From Subsaximicrobium wynnwilliamsii (GTDB lineage: Bacteria > Bacteroidota > Bacteroidia > Flavobacteriales > Flavobacteriaceae): DNA of 64,000 nt. A model generated the notes under the pieces. That model did not search any database, was not told the origin of the DNA, and worked only from the letters and a program-made list of their open reading frames with translations. Location: NCBI RefSeq assembly GCF_007997225.1, contig NZ_VORM01000025.1, forward strand, positions 1-64,000, given 5' to 3'. This document shows, piece after piece, positions 17,824-59,153 of the stretch (position 1 is its first letter; the number at the start of each line of letters is the position of its first letter). Made by a program: the position numbers and the translations under genes.

Positions 17824-17845
17824 AGCGCAACCAACACGATATTTT

Positions 17846-17873
17846 AAAGCCACTACCTTTTGTTAGTGGCTTT
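17846..17873 (+). terminator. Intrinsic terminator of the aminotransferase gene
   Basis: Perfect 10-bp arms AAAGCCACTA and TAGTGGCTTT around an 8-base loop, with a short T-run. It begins 22 bases past the stop codon. Confidence 0.88.
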
Positions 17874-18780: not shown

Positions 18781-18816
18781 TTAAAGTAAATTTTAAAAAT
18801 AACTTAAATCCTAAGG

Positions 18817-18824
18817 CAAATATA
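18817..18824 (-). promoter_or_regulatory. Probable -7 element for the Lrp-type regulator
   Basis: Reads TATATTTG on the minus strand, an exact TAnnTTTG match, 37 bases before the regulator ATG. Lrp-type genes are often self-regulated, so this divergent gap may also hold its own binding site. Confidence 0.45.
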
Positions 18825-18900
18825 CGATTATGGTTTAAATTCTAAAGCGAAGTGTCGATACTTCTCGGTAATTTTGGTGTTACCGATTAAGTAATAACTT

Positions 18901-19296: not shown

Positions 19297-19392
19297 TTCC
19301 ACAATCTAAATTTCATTTCCCATTCATTCCTAATCATTTCCGAAGGAATCATTTCAAGATAAATCGAGCATCAATCTATAAAAGCAATAGAT

Positions 19393-19441
19393 TTGGCATT
19401 TTAATGCCAATTAAAAAAATCAATTTGGCATTTCAATGCCA
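19393..19441. repeat. Twin palindromes around TTGGCATT
   Basis: Two copies of a near-palindrome with arms TTGGCATT and AATGCCAA, at 19393-19410 and 19425-19441, separated by 14 bases. They lie between the helical protein gene and the first REP. They could be a regulator site or part of the REP island. Confidence 0.6.
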
Positions 19442-19454
19442 TCTCATTGCGTAC

Positions 19455-19474
19455 GGACAGGTCGCGACCTGTCC
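19455..19474. repeat. REP palindrome 1 (GGT/ACC arms)
   Basis: A perfect 20-bp palindrome, GGACAGGTCGCGACCTGTCC, the leftmost of nine related palindromes within 1.15 kb around the RAYT gene. Its inner arm bases (AGGT/ACCT) differ from those of the neighbouring units but keep pairing. Confidence 0.9.
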
Positions 19475-19511
19475 CCTCTTACTCAATAAATATTGAAAAA
19501 AATCATGATCA

Positions 19512-19658
19512 AACAGCTCTCGAGCTGTCTCTATGCATGAAATTTATCCTTAATAATTGGGACAGCTCTCGAGCTGTCCCTACGCATAAAATTTATCCTT
19601 AATAATTGGGACAGCTCTCGAGCTGTCCCTACGCATAAAATTTATCATTAATCCACTT
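19512..19658. repeat. Three tandem 49-bp REP units at the RAYT 3' end
   Basis: Units start at 19512, 19561 and 19610, exactly 49 bases apart. Each begins with a palindrome (arms GACAGCT/AGCTGTC, loop CTCG) and continues with 30 or so bases that match the last codons of the RAYT gene, which ends at 19629. The third unit is the gene end itself. The first unit has the most mismatches and is presumably the oldest. Confidence 0.9.
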
Positions 19659-20276
19659 ATTCGGATTTTCGCTTATATAATTCGAAATCATACTATGGGC
19701 CCTATCCTCTTTGATGATACTATCATGAAAGGAACGCTTCCATTTAAAACCTGGAAAATTCAGCTCATGAATCCATTTTGAGGATGTACTCTTGAAAGCT
19801 CCTACCAGCTCTGACAATGATTTGATTTTTATGCCGACCTCAGTAACCAAATGCTTATTGATTTCGATGATGGCATGCACATGATTTGGCATGACCACAT
19901 AATTATGCAAAACAACATATTGATATTGCCCTGCCAACCATTGCAATCGCTCTTCAACAATTTTACCATACGCATTTAACTCCATGACTTTTCTGGATGG
20001 CACTATTGAAAATTCTTTGGATTTTTTTAATTGGGGGTGTACTGCATCTGCACGCCGTGCGGACAGGTCGCGACCTGTCCCTACGGGATTATTTTTCGAA
20101 TCGGAATGAACGGACAAGTCGCGACCTGTCCCTACGGGATGATTTTCATCAATCAAATCTGCATCCACAACCTGACCCAAACAACATTTCATTTGATCCA
20201 CACAAATGGTAACGAAATACAGATTATTTCTTGAATAATCATACCCCTTCATGCGATTACCTTTGCGATTTTTCAT
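19629..20276 (-). CDS. REP-associated tyrosine transposase (RAYT, Y1/IS200-like)
   Basis: A 215-residue single-strand transposase of the HUH/Y1 class that acts on REP palindromes. The start is taken as the ATG at 20274-20276 (MKNRKGNRMKGYDYS), typical of the family; a TTG further upstream is less likely. The HUH pair is H132 and H134 in VMPNHVHAII. The C-terminal NYISENPNKW segment offers a tyrosine in the region where the nucleophile is expected. Residues 45-78 are a foreign insert: two 17-residue copies containing PVGTGRDLS, each encoded by a REP palindrome. The stop codon also lies in REP-flank sequence. It is flanked by REPs on both sides; activity is uncertain because of the insert. Confidence 0.88.
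   Translation of the reverse strand: MKNRKGNRMKGYDYSRNNLYFVTICVDQMKCCLGQVVDADLIDENHPVGTGRDLSVHSDSKNNPVGTGRDLSARRADAVHPQLKKSKEFSIVPSRKVMELNAYGKIVEERLQWLAGQYQYVVLHNYVVMPNHVHAIIEINKHLVTEVGIKIKSLSELVGAFKSTSSKWIHELNFPGFKWKRSFHDSIIKEDRAHSMISNYISENPNKWINDKFYA
20043..20144 (-). repeat. Two 51-bp REP units in frame inside the RAYT gene
   Basis: Two direct units of 51 bases (17 codons) hold palindromes at 20061-20080 and 20112-20131. Read on the coding strand, each encodes PVGTGRDLS. The second palindrome is a hybrid (AAGT left arm, ACCT right arm). Both unit length and insertion point keep the reading frame open. Confidence 0.88.
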
Positions 20277-41097: not shown

Positions 41098-43077
41098 TTA
41101 TTTGATCACTAATTTTTTCACACGTTGCTTGTTTTCCGAATAAAAGTGAAGCAAGTAGATTCCAGGTGGCAAATCCAAATCCAATTTGCAGTTTGCATCC
41201 CTTCGAAAGGTTTTGATCTTTCTACCTTCCATAGAAAAAACAGCAATGGTGGTTTCTGCCACAAGCCCCTTCACATAGATTGAATTGCCTGCAGGATTGG
41301 GATATATGAAGATATTGTTGGCATTAAAATCTGTAACGCCCAACGCTTGACTCCAAAGATCGCCTGTATTATTACCCCAAATATATTCCACCAAATCGGG
41401 CTGATCAATAAACGGATTTCTATTGAATTGCCAGGTCTGGATTAGGTTATTTCGGTTCATTTCAAAATCGTCTGGCGGGTCATTTCTATGCCAATCCAAC
41501 AAAGTCGCGAGATCCCCCATTTGGCCAAGGTTGCCCTCGGGATAGCCATTGACCACCTCCAAGCCGTTGTATCTAATTGCCATGTAAAACACACTGCGCG
41601 CCACATCGCCATAAAAACTGCCTTGCGTACCTGCGGGGCCCGTATACTGCCCGTAGAACTGATTGTTTCGGGTGCTGTTCTCAATACCATCTGCTGCTCT
41701 AAGTGCATGCGCATCAGAGTTTCCGTGGCGCAGTGAATCGGCACTTGTGGTCCAAAACAGGTCCTTCCCATCGGCAATCTCATCTTCCTCAATGCTAAAA
41801 AAACCACCCCTAGAGCGCGGGAAGGTGTGCTCGCGATTCCATTTACCAGTAATTTGATTATTGACCTGAAAATCCAATTTTGGGCGACCTTGCTCGGTAT
41901 AGACCAACCAAACTTGATTGCTGTGCTCTGGATTTTGATCGGCTTCCTTGAGAATATCGATCACATCGGCATAAGACTGCTCGCGCACAATGCTTGGATC
42001 TGCAATGATGTCTTGTAAGGCTTGACGCAAATTGGTATCGCCCAAGGCGTCTAGACTGTTATAATACCCAGAAGGCTGCGTGCTGGACACATTACCGAAG
42101 GTAGGATTGACTGGTGTTCCAAAACCGGAAGCTGTATAGTCGTTATCCACAATACGGATGGCGATGTTATTATTAAGCGCCAAATAACCACTTGGCAAGC
42201 TCTCAAAACGCAATCGGGTCACCTCGTCCCCTTCATCAAGCGCATCGTCAATTAGATTTATGCTGGTCATGGTACTTGTTGTTCCCATTGGGATGCTCAA
42301 CGAGGTGTTTCCGGTAAAATCGTTGGTATCAAAAGTGTCATTATCAAAGAGAATGTTGAAGTCAAGAGTCTCTACAACCGGCGTTTCGGAAGTGAATGTG
42401 ATGTTAAAACTTGCGTCTTCATCGTATTGACGTTGCTCCAGGTCAATGCGAATGCCATTGAGAACAATCCCGCTGCCATCATTGAGCTGCCTAGGCGTTG
42501 GCACTGTGGATGTATAAGTCACATTGCCACTGGCATCTTCAAATCTTTGGATGGAGTTGGTGTTATTACCAGGGCCCTCGTTAATTTGTTCAATGGAAGT
42601 AAATCTGGGATCTGCACTAAAAATGGCGATCATATCTTGATCATCGGGATCGGAGGTGTCATACAGCAACACATCAATCAAATTGTCGATGGTCGCCACC
42701 GTGAATTCTGGAAAATCGAGATCATCGGCCTGATAAATGGCGACCGCATCTGGACCGTTTTGAATGGTGTTGGCTGAAATCAACACTTGAGGCACAGGAC
42801 TCACATCATTGCTGCCAATAAGTAGGAGTCCGTTGACATCACTCACATAACCATCGAGATCCAGCGCAAAATAACTGGAATTGCCACCAGAATTGGAACC
42901 GTTGAAAAACACCAACACATAGCCATCCAATGCCGCTTCTGGCGTGGCGGTCAATAATTCAACAAACTCCCGGTCATCGGTACTTGGGGTGTCGCAATCC
43001 AATTCGTTGATGACCACTTGGGCAAAACTGTAAGGCATAAAAATCAAGGCACTCACAATAAGTAACAATTGTTTCAT
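41098..43077 (-). CDS. Secreted endonuclease I with lamin-tail and Calx-beta-like domains and T9SS type A sorting domain
   Basis: 659 residues from the ATG at 43075-43077, which gives a clean signal peptide (MKQLLLIVSALIFMPYSFAQ); 13 upstream codons are rejected. Residues about 20-190 resemble a lamin-tail domain (VVINELDCDTPSTDDREFVE), and 205-310 a Calx-beta-like sandwich. Residues about 340-560 match the EndA/endonuclease I family: NREHTFPRSRG with the likely catalytic His, then GDVARSVFYMAIRYNG and DWHRNDPPDDFE. The last 75 residues are a T9SS type A sorting domain (YPNPAGNSIYVKGL, LPPGIYLLHFYSENKQ). It is inferred to degrade extracellular DNA or RNA for nutrients. Confidence 0.85.
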   Translation of the reverse strand: MKQLLLIVSALIFMPYSFAQVVINELDCDTPSTDDREFVELLTATPEAALDGYVLVFFNGSNSGGNSSYFALDLDGYVSDVNGLLLIGSNDVSPVPQVLISANTIQNGPDAVAIYQADDLDFPEFTVATIDNLIDVLLYDTSDPDDQDMIAIFSADPRFTSIEQINEGPGNNTNSIQRFEDASGNVTYTSTVPTPRQLNDGSGIVLNGIRIDLEQRQYDEDASFNITFTSETPVVETLDFNILFDNDTFDTNDFTGNTSLSIPMGTTSTMTSINLIDDALDEGDEVTRLRFESLPSGYLALNNNIAIRIVDNDYTASGFGTPVNPTFGNVSSTQPSGYYNSLDALGDTNLRQALQDIIADPSIVREQSYADVIDILKEADQNPEHSNQVWLVYTEQGRPKLDFQVNNQITGKWNREHTFPRSRGGFFSIEEDEIADGKDLFWTTSADSLRHGNSDAHALRAADGIENSTRNNQFYGQYTGPAGTQGSFYGDVARSVFYMAIRYNGLEVVNGYPEGNLGQMGDLATLLDWHRNDPPDDFEMNRNNLIQTWQFNRNPFIDQPDLVEYIWGNNTGDLWSQALGVTDFNANNIFIYPNPAGNSIYVKGLVAETTIAVFSMEGRKIKTFRRDANCKLDLDLPPGIYLLHFYSENKQRVKKLVIK

Positions 43078-43522
43078 CTGGTCATTTAGTTTTAGTAAAA
43101 ATAAGCAGCATTTCAATATAACGCATTCAAAATGAGCTAATTCTTCAAAAATCTAATGCCGATCACACAGAAGCCAAGAAAAACCGCTCCAACTTAGCGC
43201 GTGGAAGCCGCAGCAAAAAGACAAAACGAAGCAAATTGGCGGTTTTTGTAATGAAAGTGGCCTAGAAATTTAGAAAAAGGTTTAAAACAGCCCTTGATTA
43301 GTTACATTTAGAGCCTAAAACATAAATTCATATTACAAAATGTTCCCTTTTATAGATAACTTATTTCATACTGAAATACTATCTGTCATTTTAGTTATAC
43401 TATCGCATTCAGTTTGATAGAATTTGCTTGAAACGTTTGGAAGATGCCTTGCTACTTTTATATATTGAAAATTCTTCCGAGACATCGGGAGGAATAAAAT
43501 GCAATTTAACCCACTAAAATCA

Positions 43523-44320: not shown

Positions 44321-47300
44321 ATGGTATTTCTAAAAAAAACCCTCATTGCGCTTATATGCCTTTACGGTAGCGCGTCCCTCGCCCAACAAATTACCGTGGA
44401 TAACTCGTTTACTGCCGAAGCGCTTATAACCAATAACCTAGTTGTAGGTTGCGTAGAAACCTCAAATGTGGTATCCGATTTTAATGGAAGCGTCAACGGA
44501 TTCAACAGTTATGCTTATTTTGAAAAAGGCAGTTCTGAATTTCCGTTTGAAAATGGCATCATGCTTTCCACAGGAAATCCAATGTCTGGCGGCAACACCT
44601 TAAACAATACCATTCTCAACGAAGGCAATGACGACTGGATTGCAGATCCAGATTTAGAATCGGCTTTGGGAATTTCAAATACGCTCAATGCCACCTCCAT
44701 TTCATTCAACTTTACCTCCATAACCGATCGCATTCAGTTCAATTATATTTTAGCTTCCGAAGAATACTTTGGGAACTTTCCCTGCGAATATTCCGATGGT
44801 TTTGCATTTTTGATCAAAGAAGCGGGTTCAAGCGATCCCTATGTGAACATTGCGGTCATCCCAGGAACCACAACCGCCGTAAACACCAACACCATACATG
44901 ACGAGATTGTGGGCTATTGTCCTGCCTCAAATGCAGCCTATTTTGAAGGCTTTAATGTTGGCGACACAAATTACAACGGGCGTACCACCGTAATGAGTGC
45001 CACTGCCGCCATCACGCCTTACACCCAATATAGCATCAAGTTGGTTATTGCCGACCAGACCGATAAAAACTACGATTCCGCAGTATTCATTGAAGGCAAC
45101 AGTTTCAATTCCAACGTCGATTTGGGGGAAGACATCACCACCTGCGCGAGCAATGTGACTTTGGAAGGTGATATTTCAAACCCACAGGCTACCTATGCCT
45201 GGTATTTGGATGACGTTTTGATTCCTGGTGAAATTACAAGCACGATACAAGCCATCGCCTCTGGAATTTATAAAATTGAAATCCAAATCCCATTGGCCGG
45301 ATCCAATTGTGTGATTGAAGATAGTGTTGCGATTTCTTTAAGCTCTACCCAATCTGCCGAAGCCATTACCGATTATCAATTATGTGACGACAATGGAAAC
45401 AGTAGGGAAATTTTTGATCTGTCCATCAAGGATGCGGAGGTGCTGGATGCAGTTCCCAATTCCAGCTATGTGATATCGTATCACTACACTTCTGCAAGTG
45501 CAGAAAACAATAGTAACCCTATTGTGACACCTATCGAGAATACGTCCAATCCACAATCCATTTTTGTGAGAATTGAAGACAGTTTGAATGGATGTTTGGC
45601 CTATTCCTCCTTTCAACTCAAAGTCAATGCCTTGCCAGTTGTTACTACACCAACCGTATTCGTGGCTTGTGCCGAAGTAGATGCTGGCGGTTCTGCCATA
45701 ATTGATTTATCAGAAAAAGACGAAGAAATCACTGGTGGTAATCCAGATTTGAACGTGACTTATTATTTGGACCCCCTAGATGCAGAAAATGGTGTGAATG
45801 CCATCCCACTGCCTTACGTTAACAGCAATGCCAACGAACAAGTGTACGTGCGTGTGACCAATACGGTTACGGGTTGCGTGAGCACAACAACACTAACGAT
45901 TGAAGTGATCAACAAACCCGTGATCAATGCCGGTTTGCATATGATTGATGCCTGTGACCAAGACCATGATGGCTTTGCGTTTTTTGACCTTACCACGATC
46001 ACTGATGATGTGCTTCAAGGTTTGACAGGCGTTAACGTGACCTTCCACCAAACCCTTGAAGATGCCAATCTCGGCGCCAATGCCATTGCAGATGCCACTA
46101 ACTACGCCAATGTGGTTGCCGATGACAGCGTCGTTTTCATAAGAGTTGAAGACCAAAATACAGGCTGTGCCGCGATCACTGCCATTGAAATACACACGAA
46201 CTTACTTTTAACAGGGACAGATATAAAAAAGGTCACGCAATGTGACATCGATAACGATGGCCAAGAATCTTTTGATCTTGGGGGCATTGCACTGGATATC
46301 ATTAATGGTTTGGAAGATGTGACTATTGATTTTTACCTTACTGAAGAGGATCGCGACACCAACACAAACCCTTTAGACCCTACGGTCAGTTTTGTGCCAA
46401 CTTCCAATCCGCAATTCTTGTACATCACGCTTAGCAATCCAACCTGTAGCGAAGTCGCTGCGATCGAGTTGATCATCAACCCTGTTATTGAAGGCGTTGC
46501 CATAGGCTCCCAATTGGTATGCGATGAAGATCAAGACGGATTCACCTCCTTAAACCTCAACCAGTTCAACGATGTGATTACTGCTGGCCAACCTGGTTTT
46601 AATGTAAAATACTACCTTACCGAAGAAGACGCCATCAACAACTCAGGTGCCGTACCATCAAGTTATACCAACATTAGCAACCCGCAGCTCTTTTATTACC
46701 GGGCACGATTCAATCAAACCGGTTGTGCCGATGTCAAGGCTTTTGAAGTCACCGTACTAGAAGCGCCAATTAGTGCCGCACCTACAGGCATCATTATTTG
46801 TGATGCCGATCAAGATGGATTTTCTATTGTGAATCTCAATGCGAAAATTCCAGAAGTGATTAGCAATACCGCCAACCGAGCGGTAACGTTTCATACCAGT
46901 GTTGCAGATGCTGAAACAGATAGCAATCCAATTTTGGACGCCTCAAATTTCAATGCACAAACCCAAGATCTAACCGTACGAATTGAAAATGTCTCTACAG
47001 GTTGCTATAGCCTTCAGAATCTTGAAATCATAGTGAATACCTTACCCGTGATCAACCCAATAAGCGTATATAAGTTTTGCGAAGTTGGCGATGATGGTTT
47101 TGGGGAGTTTGTATTCTCATCACAAGATGCCGATATTCTAGAGGCTCAGACAGGTAAAGTGGTATTTTACTATGAAACTGCCATGGATGCCGAAAACAAT
47201 ACCAATGCCATTGATAAGAACGACGTCTACGTCAATTCCTCCAACCCACAAACCATTCACATAAGAATTGAAAACATTAGTGACCCAAGTTGCTATGCAG

Positions 47301-49144
47301 TTTCCTCCTTTCCTATTGAAGTGGGCACCAATCCTGATTTCAACGAAGCCACCGATATTTTTGTGTGTGATGACATTACCAATGATGGCAGCGTTATGTT
47401 TGACCTCAGCATTCAAATGGGCGAAATCACTGCCGGTATTCAAGACATTGAGGAAGTGACCTTACATGCTTCGCAGCAGGATGCAATCAATAACGTGAAT
47501 CCGTTACCTTTGGATTTTGAGAACAATGTCAACCCGCAACAAATTTATGCACGTATCAATAACGGCTCTATTTGTGAATCTTACACCTCCTTTGTACTCA
47601 ACGTGATTGCAGCACCAGACGTTAACATTCCTGATCCCCTGGAGCAATGTGATGCCGATTATGATGGCATTACCAGCTTTGACCTCACACTATCCACATT
47701 GGATATCTTAGATGTAAGACAGGACAATATTGAAGTCGGGTATTATAGAACCCAAGCTGATGCCGTCTTGGAAAGCAATGAAATAACCGATCCAGCGAAT
47801 TTTACAAATACCTCAAACCCACAAACCGTTTATGTGCGCGTGAGCAACACCATCTCAAACTGTTTTGTGAACGTCCCAGTCGGGTTAATTGTAAATCGCC
47901 CACCAACTATTAATTTTATTGACAATTACAACATTTGCGCTACTGAAGATCAACGTACCGATCTAACCGAAATCAACAGCAGCTTATTAGACCAAACGGC
48001 GAATGTGCTGGTCAATTATTATGCTTCGGAAGAAGATGCACGCAATCAAACAAACGTGTTGGATAACAACTATAATTACCAAAGCAACAACGACCTGTTA
48101 TTTGCCCGTGTCGAGTTTTCTACCACACACTGTTTTATCATCCACGATTTCAACTTAAAAGTCAATGCTTTGCCAGTTGCGAATCAACCGAGTGACATGG
48201 CCGCTTGTGATGATGATTTTGATGGCTTTTTGAACTTTGACCTTAGCACACAGAATAGCAGTATTCTAGGTGGTCAGAACCCAAATAATTTTGAAATCAC
48301 TTTTTATACCGATGTGGTATTTGCCCAAGAAGGTGTTGCCGATATCGGTACGATCTATGAAGGCATCAACAACGAAATCATCTACGCTAGACTGGAGAAT
48401 AAATTCACCGATTGTTATGAAATCACGCAGTTTACACTCATCATCTATGAGCGACCAATCGTAAACATTGATAACCAAGTGATTTGTTTAGAAAACCTAC
48501 CCTTAGTGGTAAGCGCCAACACCAACATTACTGGCGACTCTTATTTATGGTCTACCAATGCCTCCACTCCAGAAATTGAGATTACTGAGGTGGGCAGCTA
48601 CTCTGTAACCGTGACCTCTGCTTTTGGTTGTGAGACTACGCAAGTGTTTTCTGTTATAGAATCTGAGGCCGCCAACATTGAAGTTACTGAAGTGATTGAT
48701 TTTTCGGACCCAAACAACGTGACGGTTACCGTAAGTGGTATTGGGAATTATCTTTACCAAATCGACGATCTTGAGCCACAGGAATCCAACTTTTTTGAAT
48801 CTGTGCCTTTAGGCTATCACATCTTGACCATTATCGACCTCAACGGTTGTTCACGTGTGAGCAAGGAAATTGTTGTGATTGACGCACCCAAATTCATGAC
48901 CCCAAATGGCGATGGTTATTTTGACAGCTGGCACATCACTGGTGTGGAAACCTTGCAAGGCACCGTCATTTTCATCTATGATAGATATGGCAAGCTACTC
49001 ACAAAACTAACCGCCAATTCTGAAGGCTGGGATGGCTATTACAACGGTCAGAAAATGCCGGCTGCAGATTACTGGTATCTCGCGCAAGTGAAGAAGAACA
49101 GCATCGAGTTTGAAGTCAAGGGCCACTTTGCAATAAGACATTGA
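44321..49144 (+). CDS. Giant choice-of-anchor-L protein with eleven repeats and T9SS type B sorting domain (paralog 1)
   Basis: 1607 residues. Signal peptide 1-22. A choice-of-anchor-L domain follows to about 268 (FPFENGIMLSTGNP, FNYILASEEYFGN, YDSAVFIEGNSF). An Ig-like domain runs to about 345. Eleven repeats of about 94 residues span 352-1386. A typical unit opens with CD-x-D-x-DG and FDL, continues with a VTFY...DA...NP core and NTSNPQ-(I/V)YVR, and has a second Cys in TGC. An Ig-like segment (YLWSTNASTPEIEI) leads to the type B sorting domain (1522-1607; FMTPNGDGYFD, GWDGYYNGQKMP). It is exported by T9SS and surface-attached or released. The DxDxDG loops suggest calcium binding. First of four tandem paralogs. 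Confidence 0.88.
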   Translation: MVFLKKTLIALICLYGSASLAQQITVDNSFTAEALITNNLVVGCVETSNVVSDFNGSVNGFNSYAYFEKGSSEFPFENGIMLSTGNPMSGGNTLNNTILNEGNDDWIADPDLESALGISNTLNATSISFNFTSITDRIQFNYILASEEYFGNFPCEYSDGFAFLIKEAGSSDPYVNIAVIPGTTTAVNTNTIHDEIVGYCPASNAAYFEGFNVGDTNYNGRTTVMSATAAITPYTQYSIKLVIADQTDKNYDSAVFIEGNSFNSNVDLGEDITTCASNVTLEGDISNPQATYAWYLDDVLIPGEITSTIQAIASGIYKIEIQIPLAGSNCVIEDSVAISLSSTQSAEAITDYQLCDDNGNSREIFDLSIKDAEVLDAVPNSSYVISYHYTSASAENNSNPIVTPIENTSNPQSIFVRIEDSLNGCLAYSSFQLKVNALPVVTTPTVFVACAEVDAGGSAIIDLSEKDEEITGGNPDLNVTYYLDPLDAENGVNAIPLPYVNSNANEQVYVRVTNTVTGCVSTTTLTIEVINKPVINAGLHMIDACDQDHDGFAFFDLTTITDDVLQGLTGVNVTFHQTLEDANLGANAIADATNYANVVADDSVVFIRVEDQNTGCAAITAIEIHTNLLLTGTDIKKVTQCDIDNDGQESFDLGGIALDIINGLEDVTIDFYLTEEDRDTNTNPLDPTVSFVPTSNPQFLYITLSNPTCSEVAAIELIINPVIEGVAIGSQLVCDEDQDGFTSLNLNQFNDVITAGQPGFNVKYYLTEEDAINNSGAVPSSYTNISNPQLFYYRARFNQTGCADVKAFEVTVLEAPISAAPTGIIICDADQDGFSIVNLNAKIPEVISNTANRAVTFHTSVADAETDSNPILDASNFNAQTQDLTVRIENVSTGCYSLQNLEIIVNTLPVINPISVYKFCEVGDDGFGEFVFSSQDADILEAQTGKVVFYYETAMDAENNTNAIDKNDVYVNSSNPQTIHIRIENISDPSCYAVSSFPIEVGTNPDFNEATDIFVCDDITNDGSVMFDLSIQMGEITAGIQDIEEVTLHASQQDAINNVNPLPLDFENNVNPQQIYARINNGSICESYTSFVLNVIAAPDVNIPDPLEQCDADYDGITSFDLTLSTLDILDVRQDNIEVGYYRTQADAVLESNEITDPANFTNTSNPQTVYVRVSNTISNCFVNVPVGLIVNRPPTINFIDNYNICATEDQRTDLTEINSSLLDQTANVLVNYYASEEDARNQTNVLDNNYNYQSNNDLLFARVEFSTTHCFIIHDFNLKVNALPVANQPSDMAACDDDFDGFLNFDLSTQNSSILGGQNPNNFEITFYTDVVFAQEGVADIGTIYEGINNEIIYARLENKFTDCYEITQFTLIIYERPIVNIDNQVICLENLPLVVSANTNITGDSYLWSTNASTPEIEITEVGSYSVTVTSAFGCETTQVFSVIESEAANIEVTEVIDFSDPNNVTVTVSGIGNYLYQIDDLEPQESNFFESVPLGYHILTIIDLNGCSRVSKEIVVIDAPKFMTPNGDGYFDSWHITGVETLQGTVIFIYDRYGKLLTKLTANSEGWDGYYNGQKMPAADYWYLAQVKKNSIEFEVKGHFAIRH

Positions 49145-49301
49145 TATAGGGGCAGGATTTTAATCGAATACTTCCATTTTAGCTATACAGCTAAGAAATG
49201 AGTAGTTACATCTTTTAAATCACAGTTACTTAAGTTTTTTCGTTAATTTTGATGTCCCAACCATTTACAGAATACTTAACTTAACCCCAATTATCGATCT
49301 T

Positions 49302-52300
49302 GTGTTAAAATTCAACAAAAGTTGTTTCCTATACGCGGTATTGTTCTTTTCACTTTGCCATTCCGTGAGGGCGCAACAACTCAGCACCAACACTAATTCG
49401 TCCTTGACTGATCTCGTCCAAAACAGTTTGGGCCAAGGCTGTGTTGAGATTTCCAACGTGTCTTCAGCTGTGAACGGAAGCAGCACCGGCATAGATAGTT
49501 ATGGACAATTTCAGCAAGTAAATTCCAATTTTCCTTTTGTTGATGGCTTGATACTTTCTACAGGCAGTATCGCTTCCGCAGCAAATACGTTCAACGCCAC
49601 CACCTTGAGTGAAGGCGACGCTAGCTGGCAAACCGATAGTGACCTCGAAACCGTTTTAGGCTTAAGCAATACCTTGAATGCGACTTCTATAGAATTTGAT
49701 TTCATTTCAGCAAACAACACCGTTGAATTCAATTACATTTTGGCTTCTGAAGAATATTTTGGCACCAACCCCTGTAATGAGTCTGATGCTTTTGTGATCT
49801 TAATCAAGGAAGTTGGCAGCACTGGCCCTTATACCAATCTTGCTTTAGTGCCTGGCACCACCCTCCCAACAAATTCGCAGAACATAAGACAAGAAATATT
49901 TGGGTTTTGTGAAGCACAAAATCCTGAATTTTTTGAAGGTTACAGTATTGGCGACACCAATTTTAACGGTCGCACCACCGTATTGACTGCCACTGCCAAC
50001 ATTAATCGCAATGTGTCCTATCACATTAAATTTGCGATTGCCGATAAACAAGATTCCTTTTTTGACAGTGCGGTCTTTATTCAAGGCAGTAGTTTTGAGG
50101 CTTCCGTAGATTTGGGCGAGGATATTACCACCTGTGCAGAATCGTTGACCATTGACGGCAGTTTTCCAAATAACGCAGCCATTTACAGTTGGTTCAAAGA
50201 TGGTACGCTTATCCCGGGAGAGACCAATCCCAATTTAACGGTAACCGAATCTGGAACTTATTCCGTAGCAATCAATATTCCTTTTTTGAGCTCCAGCTGC
50301 AGCATAACAGATGCGGTTGAAATCGTTTTAAACGCCGAGCAATCTGCGGGTGTGATCTCCGATTTCATCAAATGCGATGATCCTTCAGGCGATGGCGTGG
50401 AGGTTTTTGACCTATCCACTAAAACTGATGAAGCACTGGCTGCCGTGCCAGACTCCAATTACACGATTTCCTATCATGCTTCTGCAGCAGATGCGAGCAA
50501 TAATATCAATCCGCTTCCAGATAATTACACCAGCCTTTCAAATCCACAAACCATTTATGTGGCCATCAAAGACGTCTTCAGTGGGTGTTTGGCCTTTAGC
50601 ACCTTCGATTTGGTATTGATAAGTCCGCCAGTGGTTAGTGCACCAACTCCAATAGTAGTTTGTGATAAAGATGCTCCCGACGGAAGAACGCGCATAGATT
50701 TGGACGACAGTACTGCGGAAATTCTTGGTAGCAATCCTAATTTCACGTTGACGTATCACAACTCCTATGTAAGAGCGCTAAGCGGAAGCAATCCCATAAA
50801 TTCGCCTTACAATACCAGACCCTTTAATGATGTGCTTTACATAAGAGTGACCGATAGCGAAACCGGCTGTTCCGCTGTGACCACTTTAGACATTACGATA
50901 CTTGAAAAACCAACGCTAGACAGCAGCATTACCCATTATATCAATGCCTGCCTCTCTGACGGAAGCCAATTTGCCGACTTCAATTTAAATTCCGTTACCG
51001 CCGCTGTTCTTGACGGCTTAACAGGTGTGGACGTAAGCTTCCACGAACTGGAAACAGAGGCTGAAACTGGCGCAAACCCAATAACAAATAGCAGCAATTA
51101 CCAAAACACAAATGCCAATTTTCAAACGGTTTATATGCGGGTTGTGGATAATACCATTGGCTGCCCTTCCGTAGAACCCATTGAATTGCATACCAATATT
51201 TTCAATACCGGTCTCAACCTCAACACGGCGTTTGAATGTGACGATGCTTCTTTAGATGGCATTGTGGATTTTGATCTTACTGAAGTTGAAGCAGATATCG
51301 TTGGTGATTTGGAAGGTTTCAATCTTATATTTTACGAATCACAAAGCGATCAAGACAGCAATAGCAATGCAATCGATACATCGGTGCCCTATACTATAAG
51401 CACAGCGCCCCAAGCCATTTATGTGAGTGTTTCCAATGGATCCTGTTCGGGAGAGGTGGTTTTGGATTTAGGGATCAATCCGCCAATTGAAATTCAAGCT
51501 TTTGGCACCGTGGATTATTGTGACAACGATCAAGACGGCATTACCAACATCTCCTTGCCCAGCTTTAATGCCATCGTGAATGTAGGGATTAGTTCACCTT
51601 CAGTTAGATATTATTTAACCGAAACTGATGCGCTCAACGACGAGAACAATCTCGGCAACAACTTTACTAATACTGCAAATCCCCAACTGCTCTACGTGAG
51701 AGTGACCAACAATGCCACAAGCTGCTTTGATGTCGCCCCGTTGACGATTGATATCCACCCGGCTCCGGTAACTTCAGAACCAAGTCCGATTATTATCTGC
51801 GATAACGATCAAGATGGATTCTTTACCGTAAATCTGAGCAGTAAGATTTCAGAAATTGTAAGCAGCACTGCCAATCTGGAGATAAAGTTTTACGAAAGCC
51901 AAATCAATGCCGAAAATGAAGAAGCTCCTATTTTGAGCCCAAGCAGTTATAATGCAAGCACACAAACCATTTACACACGAGTAACTATTGGGGCCACGGG
52001 ATGTTTTAGCGTTGTTGAATTACCAATCTTTATAAATACCACCCCCGTATTTGGCGATATTGCCGATTTTGAAAACTGTGAGCCCGATGGCTCGGTAGTT
52101 TCAGAATTCTTCTTCAACCTTAAAGATGAGGATGTTTTAGATGGCCAGACCGGGAAAGACGTGCTTTATTTTGAAAGCGAACAAGACGCCATAGACCGTG
52201 TGAATGCTATCGATAAATTTAGTGCTTATACGAGCATTTCCATTCCACAAACCATTTATGTGCGGGTCGAGAGCATTACGGATGTGACTTGTTTTGGCAC

Positions 52301-54146
52301 TTCCGAATTTGATTTGGCGATTGGTTTTTTACCTAATTTCAATGAACCCACAGATCTTTTTATCTGCGATGACATTAGTAATGACGGGATTACCAGCATC
52401 GATTTGAATGACAAGCTTATAGAAATTACCAGTGGGATCACCGATGATTTGAACATTGCGTTTTATGAGTCTAAAGCTGATGCCATAAATCAAGTGAACC
52501 AATTACCGTTGAATTATACCACTTCAAATAATCCCCAGCAAGTTTTCGCCAGGATTGATGAAGGCGAAAGTTGCTTCTCGCTAGTGGATATCTTGGTCAA
52601 CGTAATTCCTGTACCTAGTTTAAACCCATCTTATGAACTCGTACAATGCGATGTTGATTACGACGGTTTAGTCAACTGGGACATTACCAGTGTAGTAACG
52701 CAAATCACAGAAGTGCGTTTTAGCGACGTGGATATAACCTATCACCTGAGCCTTGAAGGTGCTGAAACCGATACTCAAATCATACCCACAGCCACGGATT
52801 TTGACAATACCGTCAACCCACAAACCATTTATTTAAAAGTAAACAACATCCTGTCCAATTGTGCAGCGATTGTTCCCGTGGCGCTTATAGCCAACGGCCC
52901 ACCCGCTTTGAGTGCTATTGATACTGTTGAGATATGCAGCAATGATGAAGGCAGCACCCAACTTTCTAGCTTCAATCAGCAATTATTGGAGCAAACGGCT
53001 AATGTACTGGTAAGTTATTATGCTTCGGAAAGCGATGCAATAAATCAAATAAATGTCTTAGACGACACCTATTTTTATGCAAGCAATAACGATACCTTGT
53101 TTGCAAGGGTGCAGTTCTCAACCACGCAATGTTTATTCATCAAGGAATTTAATCTGAAAGTAAACCCAACGCCAATAGCCAGCCCACCCATGGATCTTGA
53201 AGCCTGTGATGATGATTACGATGGGCTTTTGGCTTTTGACCTAAACCAACAAAATGCCAGCATTTTAGGAAGTGCAAACCCGAGCGATTTCTTTATCTAT
53301 TATTACAACGATTTGGTTTTTGCGCAAGAAGGTTTTGATCCTATTACTTACGTAAGTTATGCAGCCTCAAATAATGAGACGCTCTATGCCCGCTTAGAAC
53401 ATAAATTTACCGGTTGTTATGACATCACATCCTTTACGGTGTTTGTCAATCCGTTGCCAGTGGTCAATATTGATGATCAAATCCTCTGTCTGGAAACCTC
53501 CCCTTTATTGGTTAGCGCAAATACAAACATACCTGGAGACAGCTACCTTTGGTCCACTACGGCAACCACTCCCGAAATTGAAATAAGCAGCATTGGCAAT
53601 TATAGCGTTACCGTGACTTCTGCTTTAGGTTGTGCCACCACCAGAAGTTTTGAGGTAACAGAATCTGAAATTGCCTCCATAGAATTCACAGAAGTCATCA
53701 ATTTTGACGACCCCAACAATGTGACGGTGACCGTGACAGGTAGTGGTGATTACCTCTATCAATTGGACAACTTGCCACCACAGCAATTTAATGTTTTTCA
53801 GAATGTGCCCTTAGGTTACCATACCATTACCATCATAGATCAAAATGGTTGTGGGGAAGTCAGCCGAGAGATTGTGGTCATGGATACGCCAAAATTCATG
53901 ACACCCAATGGCGATACTTATTTTGATACCTGGCATATCACAGGTGTTGAAAATTTACCTGGAACGATCATAAATATCTACGATCGCTATGGCAAATTAT
54001 TGAAACAGCTTTCAGCCTTTTCCAGAGGTTGGGATGGCACTTACAATGGTCAAGCGATGCCAGCTTCAGATTATTGGTATGTAGCTAAAGTAAGACAGGG
54101 CGACCAAGTATTTGAATTGAAGGGCCATTTTACATTAAGAAGATAA
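49302..54146 (+). CDS. Giant choice-of-anchor-L protein with eleven repeats and T9SS type B sorting domain (paralog 2)
   Basis: 1614 residues with a GTG start, chosen because it directly opens a signal peptide (MLKFNKSCFLYAVLFFSLCH) and no ATG is available. The domain order equals that of paralog 1: anchor-L (FPFVDGLILSTGSI, YILASEEYFGT), an Ig-like domain, eleven repeats (about 355-1390), an Ig-like segment and the type B sorting domain (about 1529-1614, GWDGTYNGQAMP). Canonical DxDxDG loops are in units 5, 6, 9 and 11. Unit for unit it matches paralogs 1 and 3. It begins 157 bases after paralog 1; a TAATTTTG box (49244-49251) may give it its own promoter. Confidence 0.87.
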   Translation: MLKFNKSCFLYAVLFFSLCHSVRAQQLSTNTNSSLTDLVQNSLGQGCVEISNVSSAVNGSSTGIDSYGQFQQVNSNFPFVDGLILSTGSIASAANTFNATTLSEGDASWQTDSDLETVLGLSNTLNATSIEFDFISANNTVEFNYILASEEYFGTNPCNESDAFVILIKEVGSTGPYTNLALVPGTTLPTNSQNIRQEIFGFCEAQNPEFFEGYSIGDTNFNGRTTVLTATANINRNVSYHIKFAIADKQDSFFDSAVFIQGSSFEASVDLGEDITTCAESLTIDGSFPNNAAIYSWFKDGTLIPGETNPNLTVTESGTYSVAINIPFLSSSCSITDAVEIVLNAEQSAGVISDFIKCDDPSGDGVEVFDLSTKTDEALAAVPDSNYTISYHASAADASNNINPLPDNYTSLSNPQTIYVAIKDVFSGCLAFSTFDLVLISPPVVSAPTPIVVCDKDAPDGRTRIDLDDSTAEILGSNPNFTLTYHNSYVRALSGSNPINSPYNTRPFNDVLYIRVTDSETGCSAVTTLDITILEKPTLDSSITHYINACLSDGSQFADFNLNSVTAAVLDGLTGVDVSFHELETEAETGANPITNSSNYQNTNANFQTVYMRVVDNTIGCPSVEPIELHTNIFNTGLNLNTAFECDDASLDGIVDFDLTEVEADIVGDLEGFNLIFYESQSDQDSNSNAIDTSVPYTISTAPQAIYVSVSNGSCSGEVVLDLGINPPIEIQAFGTVDYCDNDQDGITNISLPSFNAIVNVGISSPSVRYYLTETDALNDENNLGNNFTNTANPQLLYVRVTNNATSCFDVAPLTIDIHPAPVTSEPSPIIICDNDQDGFFTVNLSSKISEIVSSTANLEIKFYESQINAENEEAPILSPSSYNASTQTIYTRVTIGATGCFSVVELPIFINTTPVFGDIADFENCEPDGSVVSEFFFNLKDEDVLDGQTGKDVLYFESEQDAIDRVNAIDKFSAYTSISIPQTIYVRVESITDVTCFGTSEFDLAIGFLPNFNEPTDLFICDDISNDGITSIDLNDKLIEITSGITDDLNIAFYESKADAINQVNQLPLNYTTSNNPQQVFARIDEGESCFSLVDILVNVIPVPSLNPSYELVQCDVDYDGLVNWDITSVVTQITEVRFSDVDITYHLSLEGAETDTQIIPTATDFDNTVNPQTIYLKVNNILSNCAAIVPVALIANGPPALSAIDTVEICSNDEGSTQLSSFNQQLLEQTANVLVSYYASESDAINQINVLDDTYFYASNNDTLFARVQFSTTQCLFIKEFNLKVNPTPIASPPMDLEACDDDYDGLLAFDLNQQNASILGSANPSDFFIYYYNDLVFAQEGFDPITYVSYAASNNETLYARLEHKFTGCYDITSFTVFVNPLPVVNIDDQILCLETSPLLVSANTNIPGDSYLWSTTATTPEIEISSIGNYSVTVTSALGCATTRSFEVTESEIASIEFTEVINFDDPNNVTVTVTGSGDYLYQLDNLPPQQFNVFQNVPLGYHTITIIDQNGCGEVSREIVVMDTPKFMTPNGDTYFDTWHITGVENLPGTIINIYDRYGKLLKQLSAFSRGWDGTYNGQAMPASDYWYVAKVRQGDQVFELKGHFTLRR

Positions 54147-54320
54147 ATAGTTTCCTGACCCTGCTTGAACCTTTATATTTGCGATACAACTAATAAAATG
54201 GATTTTTTGGTGCAAAAATCTTTTTACCATAGATTTTTTCATAGTTTCAAAAATTGTAATTTTACAACTCCCTAAATTCTATCAAAACTAATAACCTCAT
54301 TTGTGGCAACCACTGCTATT

Positions 54321-57300
54321 ATGATGAGAATGAGAGACTCTGTGTTGTTCCTAATACTTTTAGGGAGCTGCTACCTTGTATTTGCCCAGCAAATTACAAC
54401 GGACGCTTCCATCCCGCTTGAGGCGCTTATTCAGCAAAATCTGGGGCAAGGTTGTGTGGAGATAACCAACATTTCCTCAACCGTGAATGGGCAAGCCAGT
54501 GGCATTGATAGTTATGGCTCGTTCAATCGGGCATCTTCCGATTTCCCTTTTCAAAGCGGGATTATCTTAAGCACCGGGACGATTTCTTCCGCAGGAAATG
54601 TTTTAAACACCAATCCTTTAAATGAAGGCGATGATAATTGGGGCACAGATCCTGATCTTGAGACTGCGCTTGGGATTTCAGATGTAATGAACGCTACTTC
54701 CGTAGAATTCGACTTTACCACAGCGGCGAACCAAATTGAATTCAATTATCTGTTGGCATCTGAAGAATATCTGGATGCGAATCCCTGTTCTTATTCTGAT
54801 GGATTTGCCTTTTTAATCCGTCCTGTTGGATCCAGTCAACCTTACACCAATATTGCCTTGATCCCTGGCACTAATATTCCTGTAAACACCAATACCATTC
54901 ATAACGAGATTGTAGAGTTTTGTCCGGCTTCAAACCCTGAATACTTTGCAGGCTACAATCTTGGCGACACCAATTATAATGGTCGTACCACAATTCTAGC
55001 CGCAACTGCTGCAGTGCAACCCAATGTGAAGTACCGTATCAAATTGGTTATTGCAGATCAAGGTGATAAATTCTACGATTCCGCAGTATTTATAGAAAGC
55101 AACAGTTTTCAACCCTCGGCGGATTTAGGACCAGATATTGTGACCTGTGCCAATTTCTACCAACTCAACGCAGATATTGAAAACAGCTTGGCCACCTATG
55201 AGTGGTTTTTAAATGGGATGCCCATTGCTGGAGAAACCAATCCCAGCTTGCAGGCAAATGCTTCCGGTAATTATCAGGTGCAAATCAGTATTCAGCTCAA
55301 CGAAACGTCCTGTGTGATTCAAGATAGCGTTTTGGTTACCCTTAATTCAGAAGCAAGTTTAGCGCCTATATCCGATTATATATTGTGCGATGATAGCTCC
55401 AATAATGCCATAGAATCCTTCGAATTAGACTCCAAAGATGCAGAAGTGCTCAATGCTCTGACTCCCTCCACGTACCTATTGACCTATCATCTTTCTCAAC
55501 AAGATGCGGAAAATAACCTAAATCCCTTGCCTAGCCCCTATCAAAACACGGCTTCCCCGCAAACCATTTATGTTAGAAGCATAGATGCATTGAATGGCTG
55601 TATTGTTTTCACAAGCTTCAATTTAGTGGTCAACCCATTGCCAGAGGCCAACCCTCCCACTGCAATCACTGTTTGCGATGACGGTCTTCCAGATGGCATT
55701 ACCCAAATCGATCTTAGCAACACCAACGATCAACTCACTGGAGGAGACCCTAATCTTTTTGTGAGTTATCACTATACACTGCAGGACGCAAAATCTGGTC
55801 AAAACCCGTTGTATTCCCCGTACACCAACATCAATCCAAACGAAACGCTATACATAAGGGTTTTTGACGCCACAACTGGATGTTCCAATACAACTTCTGT
55901 AGAGATAAGCGTTCAAGACAGTCCAATCGTAAACCCTGAGAGCACAGCTCACATCAATGCCTGTGAACAGGATGGCGACGGTACCGAGGCCTTTGACCTC
56001 AGTTCAATTATTGGCGAGATTCTGCAAGGTCTAACTGGTGTTACGGTAAGCTTCCATGCCCAATTGGCAGAAGCCCAAACTGGCAACAATCCCATTGCCA
56101 ATGCCAATAACTATCAAAACGTAGTGGCAGGCTTACAAACAGTTTATATAAGAATCGTGGACGATACCACCGGCTGTTTTGTGATTTTGCCCTTAGAATT
56201 GCATGCCGACATTACCATCACTGGCTTTAGTACGATCCCGTTCTATCTTTGTGATGACGCTTCGGAAGATGGCATAGAAAATTTCGACCTCAATCAAGTG
56301 GAACTCTATCTTACCAACGGCTATGAGACCTACGGGATTCTATTTTATGAATCTGAAGAGGATCTAAATGCTGGCAGCAATCCTTTAAATAAAGAGCTGC
56401 CCTATTCGGTAAGTAATTCTAAGACATTGTATGTAACGGTCATAGACGATGAGTGCGAAACTTCAACAACCATCGTGCTTGACGTTGTACCGCCAATCAA
56501 CATTCAAGGGCTTGCCGATGTGAATTACTGTGATAACGATACCGATGGATTTACATCCATAGCACTGGACAGTTTCAACACCCAAGTGGCAGCTGGAGTC
56601 AATGGCGCCAGCGTTTCCTATTATCTCACAGAAATGGATGCCATAGCTCAAGACAATGAATTGCCTCCATTTTACTACAATCTTGAAAACCCACAACAAG
56701 TTTGGGTTCGCGTGGAGAGTTCCCTTTCCAATTGCTTTGACATTGCTCCCTTAACCATCAACGTTTTAAATTCGCCTGTTGCCAATACACCATCAAATCT
56801 TATTGTGTGTGACGACGATCAAGATGGGATTTATACGATTGATCTGGAAAGCAAAATCCCCGAAATCACTACCGATACCACAGGAATCGCGTTTTCTTTC
56901 CATACCGATTACGATGAAGCACTTAGCGCCTCCAATGCCATTGACACTCCGGAAAATTATGATTCCATCTCCCAATTTATTTATGTGCGTGTTGAGGATG
57001 AGACGACCAGCTGCTTTAGCGTGGTGTCCTTTTATGCTGATATCAATACCTTACCCGTATTTGAAGCCATCGCAGACTTTGAAAACTGTGAGGCCGATGG
57101 TAATGCCATAGCAGATTTCTTTTTTTATCTGAAGGATCAAGACATTCTAAACGACCAAACCGGGAAGCAGGTGCTCTATTTTGAAACCGCTCAAGACGCC
57201 ATTGATCGGGTTGATATCATTGATAAATATGTTGCTTATCAAAATCTATCCAGCCCCCAAACCATTCACGTTCGGGTTGAAAGCATTACTGATGAAGGCT

Positions 57301-59153
57301 GTTTTGGCACCTCCTCTTTTGTGGTTTTGGTTGGGGCTTTACCCATTTTCAATGCACCCACCAGTGTTTTTCTTTGTGACGACATAAGCAATGATGCCGT
57401 TGAGACCTATGACCTCAGCCAAAAAGTTGACGAAATCATTGCAGGTTCGCCACAAGATCTGGACGTCTCCTTTCACGAGTCTCAATATGATGCGCAAAAC
57501 AATTTAAACCCGGTGCCCTTAAATTACACAAACAGCACCAATCCACAGGCGATTTACGCACGTATCGATGATGGCACCTATTGCCGAGCAGTGGCGACTT
57601 TTGAGATCAGTATCATTCAAGTGCCGTCGGTGGGAACGCCCTCAGATTTAAGGCAGTGTGACACAGATTATGATGGATTGGTACCTTTTGACATCAGTGT
57701 TGTGGAAATAGAGATTTTAGATGTGCGGCAAGACAATATCGTGGTCACGTATCACGAATCCTTTGAAGGTGCCGAGACCGATGCCGAAATCATTTCAGAT
57801 CCAGAAAACTATACCAATACCTCCAATCCGCAAACGGTTTACATCAAGATCAATAACACCATCTCTAATTGCTACGTTACGCTGCCCATAAATCTTTCGG
57901 TGAATCTTCCGCCCGCGCTCAATGACTTTCAAAGCTACGTAATTTGCGAAAATGAGACCAACAGTTTTGATTTAAGCACAATAAATTCCGTAGTAAGTGA
58001 GACGACTTCAGGTATGACTTTCAGCTATTTCCTTTCCGAAGAAGATGCTGAAGCCAATGAAAACGCCATCAACACCGATTACACCTACAACAGCACCAAC
58101 GATACCCTTTTTATAAGAATCGCAAATAACAGCACCGGTTGCTGGACCACATACGACTTTGATTTGATCATCAACCCCTTGCCTATCGCCAACCAACCTG
58201 ACGCCCTTGAAGCTTGTGACGATGACTTTGATGGGTTTTTCGATTTTGATTTCGAGTCACAAACCACTTTCATTCTAGGTTCCCAAAACGCGAACAATTT
58301 TGAGCTGAGTTTTTATACTTCCGCGGAAAATGCCTTTCAAGGCAGCAATGCATTGCCAGAAAATTATGAGTCCGCTTCTGGACAAACCATTTATGTGCGC
58401 GTCCAAAATATGGATACCGGTTGTTTTAGCAGCACCCAATTCCAGACCATCGTTTTCCTTAAACCACAAGTGGCGATCCCAGACCAAGTCATCTGTTTGG
58501 AGAATTTACCCTTACTGGTAAGCGCCAACACCAACAATCCCGACGACACTTACCTTTGGTCCACCAACCAAAGCAGCCCCGAAATTGAAATCGATGAGAT
58601 TGGCAGCTATGCCGTGACCGTTACCTCGATTTTTGGCTGTGCAATTACCAGTGTTTTTGAAGTCACTGAATCTGAGGCAGCGACAATAGAGATCACAGAA
58701 ACCGTCGATTTTTCAGACCCCAATAATATTACCATTACCATAAGTGGTATTGGCAACTACCTGTATCAACTCGATGCGAATGTGCCCCAGGAATCCAACG
58801 TGTTTGAAAATGTGAGTTTGGGCTACCACACCATAACCGTTATTGACCTCAATGGCTGCTCTGAAGTGAGCAAGGAAGTCGTGGTTATTGACACCCCAAA
58901 ATTTGTGACTCCAAATGGTGACGGATATTTTGACACTTGGCATATTACCGGTGTGGAAACGCTCACAGGCACCATCGTCTATATTTTTGACCGCTACGGA
59001 AAACTACTTAAAACCCTAACTTATAATGGCCCCGGCTGGAATGGAACCTACAACGGCAATCTCATGCCAGCAACCGATTACTGGTTTGTCGCCAAAGTGC
59101 GCAAAGGTGATATTGCCTTTGAAGTAAAAGGCCATTTTGCCTTGCGCTTGTAA
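54321..59153 (+). CDS. Giant choice-of-anchor-L protein with eleven repeats and T9SS type B sorting domain (paralog 3)
   Basis: 1610 residues from the ATG at 54321; a GTG at 54303 and ATGs at 54324 and 54330 are also possible. The signal peptide ends LVFAQQ. Architecture as in paralogs 1 and 2: anchor-L (FPFQSGIILSTGTI, FNYLLASEEYLDA), Ig-like, eleven repeats (about 352-1388), Ig-like segment, type B sorting domain (about 1525-1610, GWNGTYNGNLMP). Canonical or near-canonical DxDxDG loops are in units 3, 5, 6, 9 and 11. The repeat array is the same length (about 3.1 kb) as in the other two. It starts 174 bases after paralog 2. Confidence 0.87.
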   Translation: MMRMRDSVLFLILLGSCYLVFAQQITTDASIPLEALIQQNLGQGCVEITNISSTVNGQASGIDSYGSFNRASSDFPFQSGIILSTGTISSAGNVLNTNPLNEGDDNWGTDPDLETALGISDVMNATSVEFDFTTAANQIEFNYLLASEEYLDANPCSYSDGFAFLIRPVGSSQPYTNIALIPGTNIPVNTNTIHNEIVEFCPASNPEYFAGYNLGDTNYNGRTTILAATAAVQPNVKYRIKLVIADQGDKFYDSAVFIESNSFQPSADLGPDIVTCANFYQLNADIENSLATYEWFLNGMPIAGETNPSLQANASGNYQVQISIQLNETSCVIQDSVLVTLNSEASLAPISDYILCDDSSNNAIESFELDSKDAEVLNALTPSTYLLTYHLSQQDAENNLNPLPSPYQNTASPQTIYVRSIDALNGCIVFTSFNLVVNPLPEANPPTAITVCDDGLPDGITQIDLSNTNDQLTGGDPNLFVSYHYTLQDAKSGQNPLYSPYTNINPNETLYIRVFDATTGCSNTTSVEISVQDSPIVNPESTAHINACEQDGDGTEAFDLSSIIGEILQGLTGVTVSFHAQLAEAQTGNNPIANANNYQNVVAGLQTVYIRIVDDTTGCFVILPLELHADITITGFSTIPFYLCDDASEDGIENFDLNQVELYLTNGYETYGILFYESEEDLNAGSNPLNKELPYSVSNSKTLYVTVIDDECETSTTIVLDVVPPINIQGLADVNYCDNDTDGFTSIALDSFNTQVAAGVNGASVSYYLTEMDAIAQDNELPPFYYNLENPQQVWVRVESSLSNCFDIAPLTINVLNSPVANTPSNLIVCDDDQDGIYTIDLESKIPEITTDTTGIAFSFHTDYDEALSASNAIDTPENYDSISQFIYVRVEDETTSCFSVVSFYADINTLPVFEAIADFENCEADGNAIADFFFYLKDQDILNDQTGKQVLYFETAQDAIDRVDIIDKYVAYQNLSSPQTIHVRVESITDEGCFGTSSFVVLVGALPIFNAPTSVFLCDDISNDAVETYDLSQKVDEIIAGSPQDLDVSFHESQYDAQNNLNPVPLNYTNSTNPQAIYARIDDGTYCRAVATFEISIIQVPSVGTPSDLRQCDTDYDGLVPFDISVVEIEILDVRQDNIVVTYHESFEGAETDAEIISDPENYTNTSNPQTVYIKINNTISNCYVTLPINLSVNLPPALNDFQSYVICENETNSFDLSTINSVVSETTSGMTFSYFLSEEDAEANENAINTDYTYNSTNDTLFIRIANNSTGCWTTYDFDLIINPLPIANQPDALEACDDDFDGFFDFDFESQTTFILGSQNANNFELSFYTSAENAFQGSNALPENYESASGQTIYVRVQNMDTGCFSSTQFQTIVFLKPQVAIPDQVICLENLPLLVSANTNNPDDTYLWSTNQSSPEIEIDEIGSYAVTVTSIFGCAITSVFEVTESEAATIEITETVDFSDPNNITITISGIGNYLYQLDANVPQESNVFENVSLGYHTITVIDLNGCSEVSKEVVVIDTPKFVTPNGDGYFDTWHITGVETLTGTIVYIFDRYGKLLKTLTYNGPGWNGTYNGNLMPATDYWFVAKVRKGDIAFEVKGHFALRL

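Follow-up and report, generated by a model that had tools for sequence, protein, structure and literature searches.

Stalk proteins of bacteria are usually viewed as built from repeats that can stand in for one another and be gained or lost without constraint. Three long tandem genes of Subsaximicrobium wynnwilliamsii raise the question of how an array of this kind keeps the number and order of its repeats, and by which route its length can change. They lie on the + strand of a 64,000-nucleotide stretch of DNA (contig NZ_VORM01000025.1, positions 1 to 64,000), hereafter the window, and are called copy 1 (P0001 of the open reading frame list, 44321-49144, 1607 residues), copy 2 (P0002, 49302-54146, 1614 residues), and copy 3 (P0003, 54303-59153, 1616 residues). 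Each protein carries eleven repeated units between a choice-of-anchor L head and a C-terminal sorting domain; the units have retained their positional identity, the arrays of longer relatives differ in steps of three units, and the two halves of the copy 2 gene give conflicting trees. On balance, we slightly favor the reading that these proteins form stalks on the cell surface and change their length three domains at a time through recombination between sister genes.

The eleven units match position by position

A preliminary description of this DNA had reported three tandem proteins with eleven units each over about 3.1 kb, and the arrays indeed occupy 45356-48448 in copy 1 (3.1 kb by unit detection), 50346-53450 in copy 2, and 55359-58457 in copy 3 (all + strand), with 90-96 residues per unit. 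It had also held that unit n of one copy is closest to unit n of the others, which is borne out for 33 of 33 units: both same-position counterparts rank first and second, with a single tie after rounding in second place (copy 1 unit 4). Mean identity between units of the three proteins is 44% at the same position (33 pairs) and 26% at other positions, both within a protein (165 pairs) and between proteins (330 pairs). The tree of 35 units for which the preliminary description had predicted clustering by position, comprising these 33 and the two units of a fourth gene downstream, does cluster that way; all eleven position groups are monophyletic with bootstrap values of 85-100, and the units of each protein are scattered, with 11 changes needed per protein, rather than grouped. 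Moreover, position profiles built from 95 eleven-unit proteins of named loci in relatives assigned all 33 held-out window units correctly.

The short motifs quoted at the outset for units 7 to 10 are present in all three window proteins, but "always" does not hold across relatives. There, 14 of the 95 position-9 units contain QCD-x-DYDG and none of 950 elsewhere do; CDDI-x-ND occurs in 43 of 95 at position 8 and in 6 of 950 elsewhere, and QTGK in 48 of 95 at position 7 and in 0 of 950 elsewhere. These three are bound to their positions, while the SYY/NYY/SYF type of unit 10 is so only weakly (55 of 95 at position 10, 125 of 950 elsewhere).

Positional matching had been taken as an argument that each unit has its own role, a conclusion that does not follow because gene duplication alone predicts such matching. 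A 14-unit choice-of-anchor L paralog shows it too, with 164 of 168 units matched by position between four genomes, albeit in a register that differs from that of the eleven-unit family. More telling are features tied to particular positions. Among 109 eleven-unit proteins, the calcium-loop-like motif CDxDxDG is found at positions 3 (45 proteins), 4 (19), 5 (76), 6 (75), 9 (79), and 11 (78) and in 0 of 109 at each of positions 1, 2, 7, 8, and 10. Position-specific residues number ten in unit 7, six in unit 9, five in unit 11, and four in unit 8, followed by two each in units 1, 2, 3, and 10 and one each in units 5 and 6; the same count gave none for unit 4. Alignment columns K60 and Q36 are 100% conserved in unit 7 compared to 1% and 12% elsewhere, and R35 reaches 98% in unit 9 compared to 0% elsewhere. 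Unit-specific lengths are kept within a few residues in relatives. The ratio of nonsynonymous to synonymous change (omega) lies between 0 and 0.30 in every unit with an estimable synonymous divergence (dS) across 11 close pairs, some of whose dS values are saturated, with one exception of 0.39 at a dS of 0.03. Judging from these position-bound motifs and residues, several units have an identity of their own, most strongly units 7, 9, 11, and 8.

Array length changes by whole blocks of three units

The named relatives are the best 80 of 355 (78 loci), found with search patterns that sat in the head, so that lower-scoring relatives might differ in unit number. Among 132 distinct long proteins overall, 109 have 11 units, 18 have 14, and four have 17, and one is cut after 15 units by a contig end. 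For eight named 11-unit proteins, ten units were detected and one double-length gap was counted as a unit, in agreement with their cysteine counts. All 23 longer proteins read as units 1-8 followed by repeats of the block 9-10-11, with the exception of one unit in locus L150 whose best profile is position 2. The 20 complete ones add whole 9-10-11 blocks in every case (20/20), i.e., length changes only by entire super-repeats, and the three that end at a contig or locus edge (after 14, 14, and 15 units) fit the pattern. L120_21047 (L120:21047-26029) and L142_15731 (L142:15731-20717) reach the end of the fetched locus directly after unit 14; they may have 17 or more units because this unit 14 groups with internal and not with terminal units 11. 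In copy 1, the single corresponding block of units 9-10-11 spans 47618-48448 (+ strand).

The distinction between eleven and more units requires at least 11 state changes on a tree of the first gene halves. Internal copies of unit 9 form a clade of their own (support 98), and those of unit 11 form a weaker one (83). In a larger unit set, these groups of internal copies are less clean and need more changes, and few branches are well supported. The smaller unit tree favors, without settling it, a single origin of the 9-10-11 block with subsequent losses and transfers.

Probable return of sister genes to eleven units and possible exchange of 3' ends

The first-half tree resolves three lineages: alpha, with copy 1 and most single-copy genes; beta, with second copies; and gamma, from Winogradskyella. 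Copy 1 is part of an old lineage whose known members come from one family. Copy 3 falls into beta, and copy 2 is beta-like in its first half and resembles copy 1 at its 3' end. A search for the same block in related genomes, as the preliminary description had proposed, turned up a three-gene block in the same order in genome G003 (L144:2161-18637), albeit with 11, 14, and 14 units; in a larger tree of first halves, its first, second, and third genes are the partners of copies 1, 2, and 3, respectively (support 100, 100, and 98).

This bears on the initial view that the array had been fixed at eleven units before the genes were duplicated. The array is indeed older than the duplications; the number eleven, on the other hand, was probably regained in copies 2 and 3, given that 16 of 26 members of the beta lineage exceed it and that the block in G003 reads 11-14-14. 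Traces of such a return can be sought in units 9-11, which in longer proteins fall into first and last types. The comparison used 11 longer proteins from the genus of the window and near relatives, including L144_7989, which lies outside narrow beta. In copy 3, units 9 and 10 are nearer to the first type and unit 11 is nearer to the last type in 11 of 11 comparisons each. A first-type unit 10 thereby adjoins a last-type unit 11, unlike in copy 1 and its ortholog L144_13814, which share a first|last|last pattern, and this points to a return of copy 3 to eleven units via a joint at 10|11. Copy 2 has a first-type-like unit 9 and last-type-like units 10 and 11, the same pattern as copy 1. The case for its return is weaker than for copy 3 and builds on its sister gene in G003 having 14 units and on its unit 10 falling into a clade in which 9 of the 11 units are last-type units of longer proteins (support 95). 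Copies 2 and 3 would thus probably have returned to eleven separately.

The two ends of copy 2 tell different stories. Its first half groups with the second gene of G003 (support 100), in conflict with its unit 11 and tail, which group with copy 1 and the copy 1 ortholog (99/89; 97 in an earlier tree). This is good though not conclusive evidence that the 3' end of copy 2 was exchanged with the copy 1 lineage. Tails of neighboring genes pair likewise in Mangrovimonas locus L105 (100/99). Some joins of long branches in the gene-half trees were flagged, and L124 was left out of the trees for its short N-terminus. The earlier statement that units have not been homogenized since duplication can stand for changes within arrays, whose units are 26-30% identical, but it overlooks exchange between genes as suggested by the 3' end of copy 2.

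Domain architecture and proposed mechanism

Copy 1 consists of a choice-of-anchor L head (44429-45106; NF038133, E 1.6e-39), an immunoglobulin-like (Ig-like) domain, the eleven units, a second Ig-like stretch between units and sorting domain that was judged by eye, and a type B sorting domain (48878-49138; TIGR04131, E 1.3e-30). Copies 2 and 3 share this layout, with head and sorting domain at 49413-50096 (E 3.6e-39) and 53883-54143 (E 2.6e-32) in copy 2 and at 54426-55109 (E 7.9e-47) and 58887-59147 (E 1.6e-30) in copy 3, all on the + strand. Copy 3 begins with GTG, and an ATG a few codons downstream is a possible alternative start. The fourth gene (P0004, 59202-61553, + strand, 783 residues) encodes the same head and type B sorting domain around only two units. 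In all four genes, NF038133 scores 134-167 bits against a cut-off of 27 and TIGR04131 105-111 bits against a cut-off of 35, with PF13585 / CHU_C also above its cut-off, which identifies P0001-P0004 at the sequence level as type B cargo of the type IX secretion system (T9SS). Their hydrophobic N-termini look like signal peptides by eye, and the long proteins have a conserved tail of 231 residues that includes their type B domain.

Pfam gave no consistent match for the unit domain. Each unit typically contains two cysteines (exactly two in 1193 of 1199 units from the 109 eleven-unit proteins), and none of the 22 unit cysteines of an array varies in any of the 88 arrays aligned. Every unit of the window proteins is acidic, with a net charge of -5 to -17 (45356-48448, 50346-53450, 55359-58457). 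AlphaFold2 models reach a mean predicted local distance difference test score (pLDDT) of 88.9 for the array and 87.6 for the stretch from the head through unit 1. The array model shows eleven folded units, which in the sequence lie between head and anchor; the overall path of the rod is not fixed at a predicted template modeling score (pTM) of 0.36. Foldseek matches to solved structures are mostly chains of tandem Ig-like domains, and they barely cover the head part of the model (residues 1-247).

By analogy with published type B cargo, the tail and type B domain would send the protein through the translocon, and an unlinked PorP/SprF-type shuttle would then hold it at the outer membrane. Each unit is probably closed by one disulfide, and several units carry an acidic loop of calcium type, with calcium as the putative ligand. 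Eleven Ig-like units would form a stalk that carries the choice-of-anchor L head, probably an adhesion or binding domain, away from the cell, and the number of domains would set its reach. The array may have arisen once, after which the units diverged; order and number would then have become frozen because diverged units hardly recombine with their neighbors. Change would now come from recombination between tandem sister genes, which would keep the register because it pairs like units. In this way, genes could gain or lose entire 9-10-11 blocks, which would shift them among 11, 14, and 17 units, and could trade their 3' portions.

Distribution and genomic surroundings

Among the matches listed by a survey that scored five candidates per genome, those covering at least 1200 of 1616 residues came from 21 of the 22 further genomes in the genus, from 12 of 35 in other genera of the family, and from 0 of 39 in other families of the order. 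The named relatives come mostly from marine Flavobacteriaceae such as Gelidibacter, Psychroserpens, Winogradskyella, Bizionia, Hanstruepera, Xanthomarina, Mangrovimonas, Olleya, Lacinutrix, and Algibacter; positional order is kept across many genera of this family. In three genomes of the window's genus, the encoded proteins match those of Psychroserpens damuponensis, P. mesophilus, and P. jangbogonensis without a difference; this genus therefore probably corresponds to Psychroserpens taken broadly.

Counterparts of the fourth gene follow the long genes in many loci of relatives, and four-unit type B genes are common upstream. Across 79 loci including the window, a one-unit type B gene accompanies the long genes in 56, uvrB in 51, and two ABC transporter genes in 48 each (gene names taken from one example locus). 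The window's genome has uvrB on contig C47 and its one-unit gene on C56; uvrB is also far from the long genes in G002 and G003, both of them single-contig genomes. The locus has thus come apart in some members of the genus. Directly upstream of copy 1, the - strand encodes a type A sorting domain protein (41098-43116) with a weak deoxyribonuclease I match; in many relatives, type B genes occupy this place. In locus L098, the short gene is followed by another type B gene (17259-20027), which has a TIG and a Lamin Tail Domain and belongs to a cluster of 8 members in 7 loci.

The 14-unit paralog has 14 units in all four single-contig genomes (L161-L164). It runs off the contig in all eleven draft assemblies fetched (L165-L175), including that of the window's genome (L170 = G000:C41:1-3500), a hint that long stretches of nearly identical DNA occur at other sites of these genomes.

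Weighing the alternatives

Several observations speak against stalks that change length through sister-gene recombination. A fixed unit number is not special to these proteins, and we rejected it as a unique property: in neighboring genes of the locus, 1, 2, or 4 units are the rule, although a few genes carry other numbers, for example 6 or 9, and the 14-unit paralog is constant in 4/4 genomes. The position of copy 2 is unstable, inside beta in a smaller tree and outside narrow beta in a larger one, and an approximately unbiased (AU) test did not reject its tail grouping with the first-half ortholog (p 0.085). Its first|last|last pattern also occurs in the eleven-unit lineage and in itself shows no return to eleven; the joint type as proof of copy 2's return was dropped since copy 1 and L144_13814 share it, leaving it informative for copy 3 only. 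Triad copies within one protein are now 32-57% identical, which would make recombination among them hard. Finally, the window's contig contains no PorP/SprF gene (PF11751; 6 in the genome), and the proteins are therefore orphan type B cargo as PMC12618676 uses the term.

A rival account would be neutral: the sole reason why number and order stay constant is that divergence keeps the units from recombining, and array length and the individual units are immaterial beyond folding. The low identity of units within a protein (about 26-30%) fits this view, as does the mostly constant unit number of the neighboring genes and of the 14-unit paralog, the latter position-matched in 164 of 168 units. However, neutrality does not predict residues bound to one position (K60 and Q36 in unit 7, R35 in unit 9), a motif missing from the same five positions in all 109 proteins, or unit-specific lengths kept within a few residues, and we regard it as possible but doubtful. 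At the opposite extreme, the units could act as a register-encoded ruler or scaffold, in which each unit or three-unit block contacts a set partner or neighbor, as proposed for titin super-repeats on the thick filament, and only three-unit steps are allowed. The whole 9-10-11 blocks of the complete longer proteins (20/20, with the three cut ones fitting) would follow naturally, and the clades of internal units 9 (98) and, more weakly, 11 (83) look as if fitted to the 11-to-9 joint. Yet a single block origin with register-keeping recombination yields the same steps, the internal-copy groups are less clean in the larger unit set, the ruler comes without a known partner, and the 14-unit paralog has another register; this explanation seems to us quite unlikely. 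Kinship with the Aureispira grappling hook protein GhpA, which would make these proteins released or surface-bound hooks for catching prey, is very improbable: GhpA chains rank first among the Foldseek matches of the head model (E 6.4e-8) and of the array model (E 4.2e-27), but a search for sequence similarity to it found none.

We therefore retain, as the slightly favored reading, surface stalks that change length in three-domain steps through sister-gene recombination. A bolder extension, which we consider unlikely, is that every unit bears an address. Each position, like the 9-10-11 block as a whole, would fit a set structural environment, for instance a superhelical fiber turn or lateral contacts with sister stalks, and only 8 + 3n units would work. 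The sister genes would then serve as a recombination reservoir that switches between 11, 14, and 17 units without loss of register.

Comparison with known systems

No description of this family appeared among the matches listed in literature searches on choice-of-anchor domains, T9SS/SprB, titin, grappling hooks, type B proteins in proteomics, periscope proteins, and exoproteomes, and none was found that combines choice-of-anchor L with type B sorting. As long repetitive proteins with TIGR04131 above cut-off, copies 1-3 resemble known type B cargo, and their 231-residue tail comes close to the length of up to 235 residues that type B export is reported to require (PMC9143113 among the sources). 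With orphan type B cargo they share the lack of a linked sprF-like gene. The gliding adhesin SprB differs, in that the sequence here has 11 diverged units in fixed order; contig C51 has no sprF-like gene such as the one that adjoins the gene of SprB, and no SprB repeat is among the Pfam matches of the window proteins at E <= 0.1.

The super-repeats of the titin A-band, as far as the cited sections describe them (PMC10665226), are alike in that comparable positions of the blocks resemble each other over their neighbors and that position-specific residues are concentrated in few positions. Titin, in the same account, belongs to the eukaryotic sarcomere, combines Ig with fibronectin type III (FnIII) domains, and repeats its blocks within one chain, whereas here the blocks compared sit in separate bacterial genes with no known partner filament. 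The repeats of periscope proteins hardly differ from one another, and their number varies freely, in contrast to units of about 26% identity whose number moves in threes. What the two would have in common is that the length of the gene determines how far a surface protein holds out its ligand-binding domain, as described for periscope proteins (PMC8201768). Fibrillar adhesins, as outlined in part of PMC8286594, share the placement of an adhesive-type head on a stalk of repeated domains. They differ in that the adhesive activity of the head is only putative here. Aureispira belongs to the Bacteroidota. Its GhpA (PDB 9flp, 9fly) is likewise secreted by a type IX system (PMC11205867) and is the top Foldseek match. 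It is about three times longer, however, forms a heptamer, and shows no sequence similarity that we could find to the window proteins. Set beside these systems, the proposed stalks consist of individually recognizable domains that keep their order and change length in threes, apparently through exchange between neighboring genes, and they offer a testable case of how a bacterium could alter how far a surface protein extends while leaving its domain order intact.
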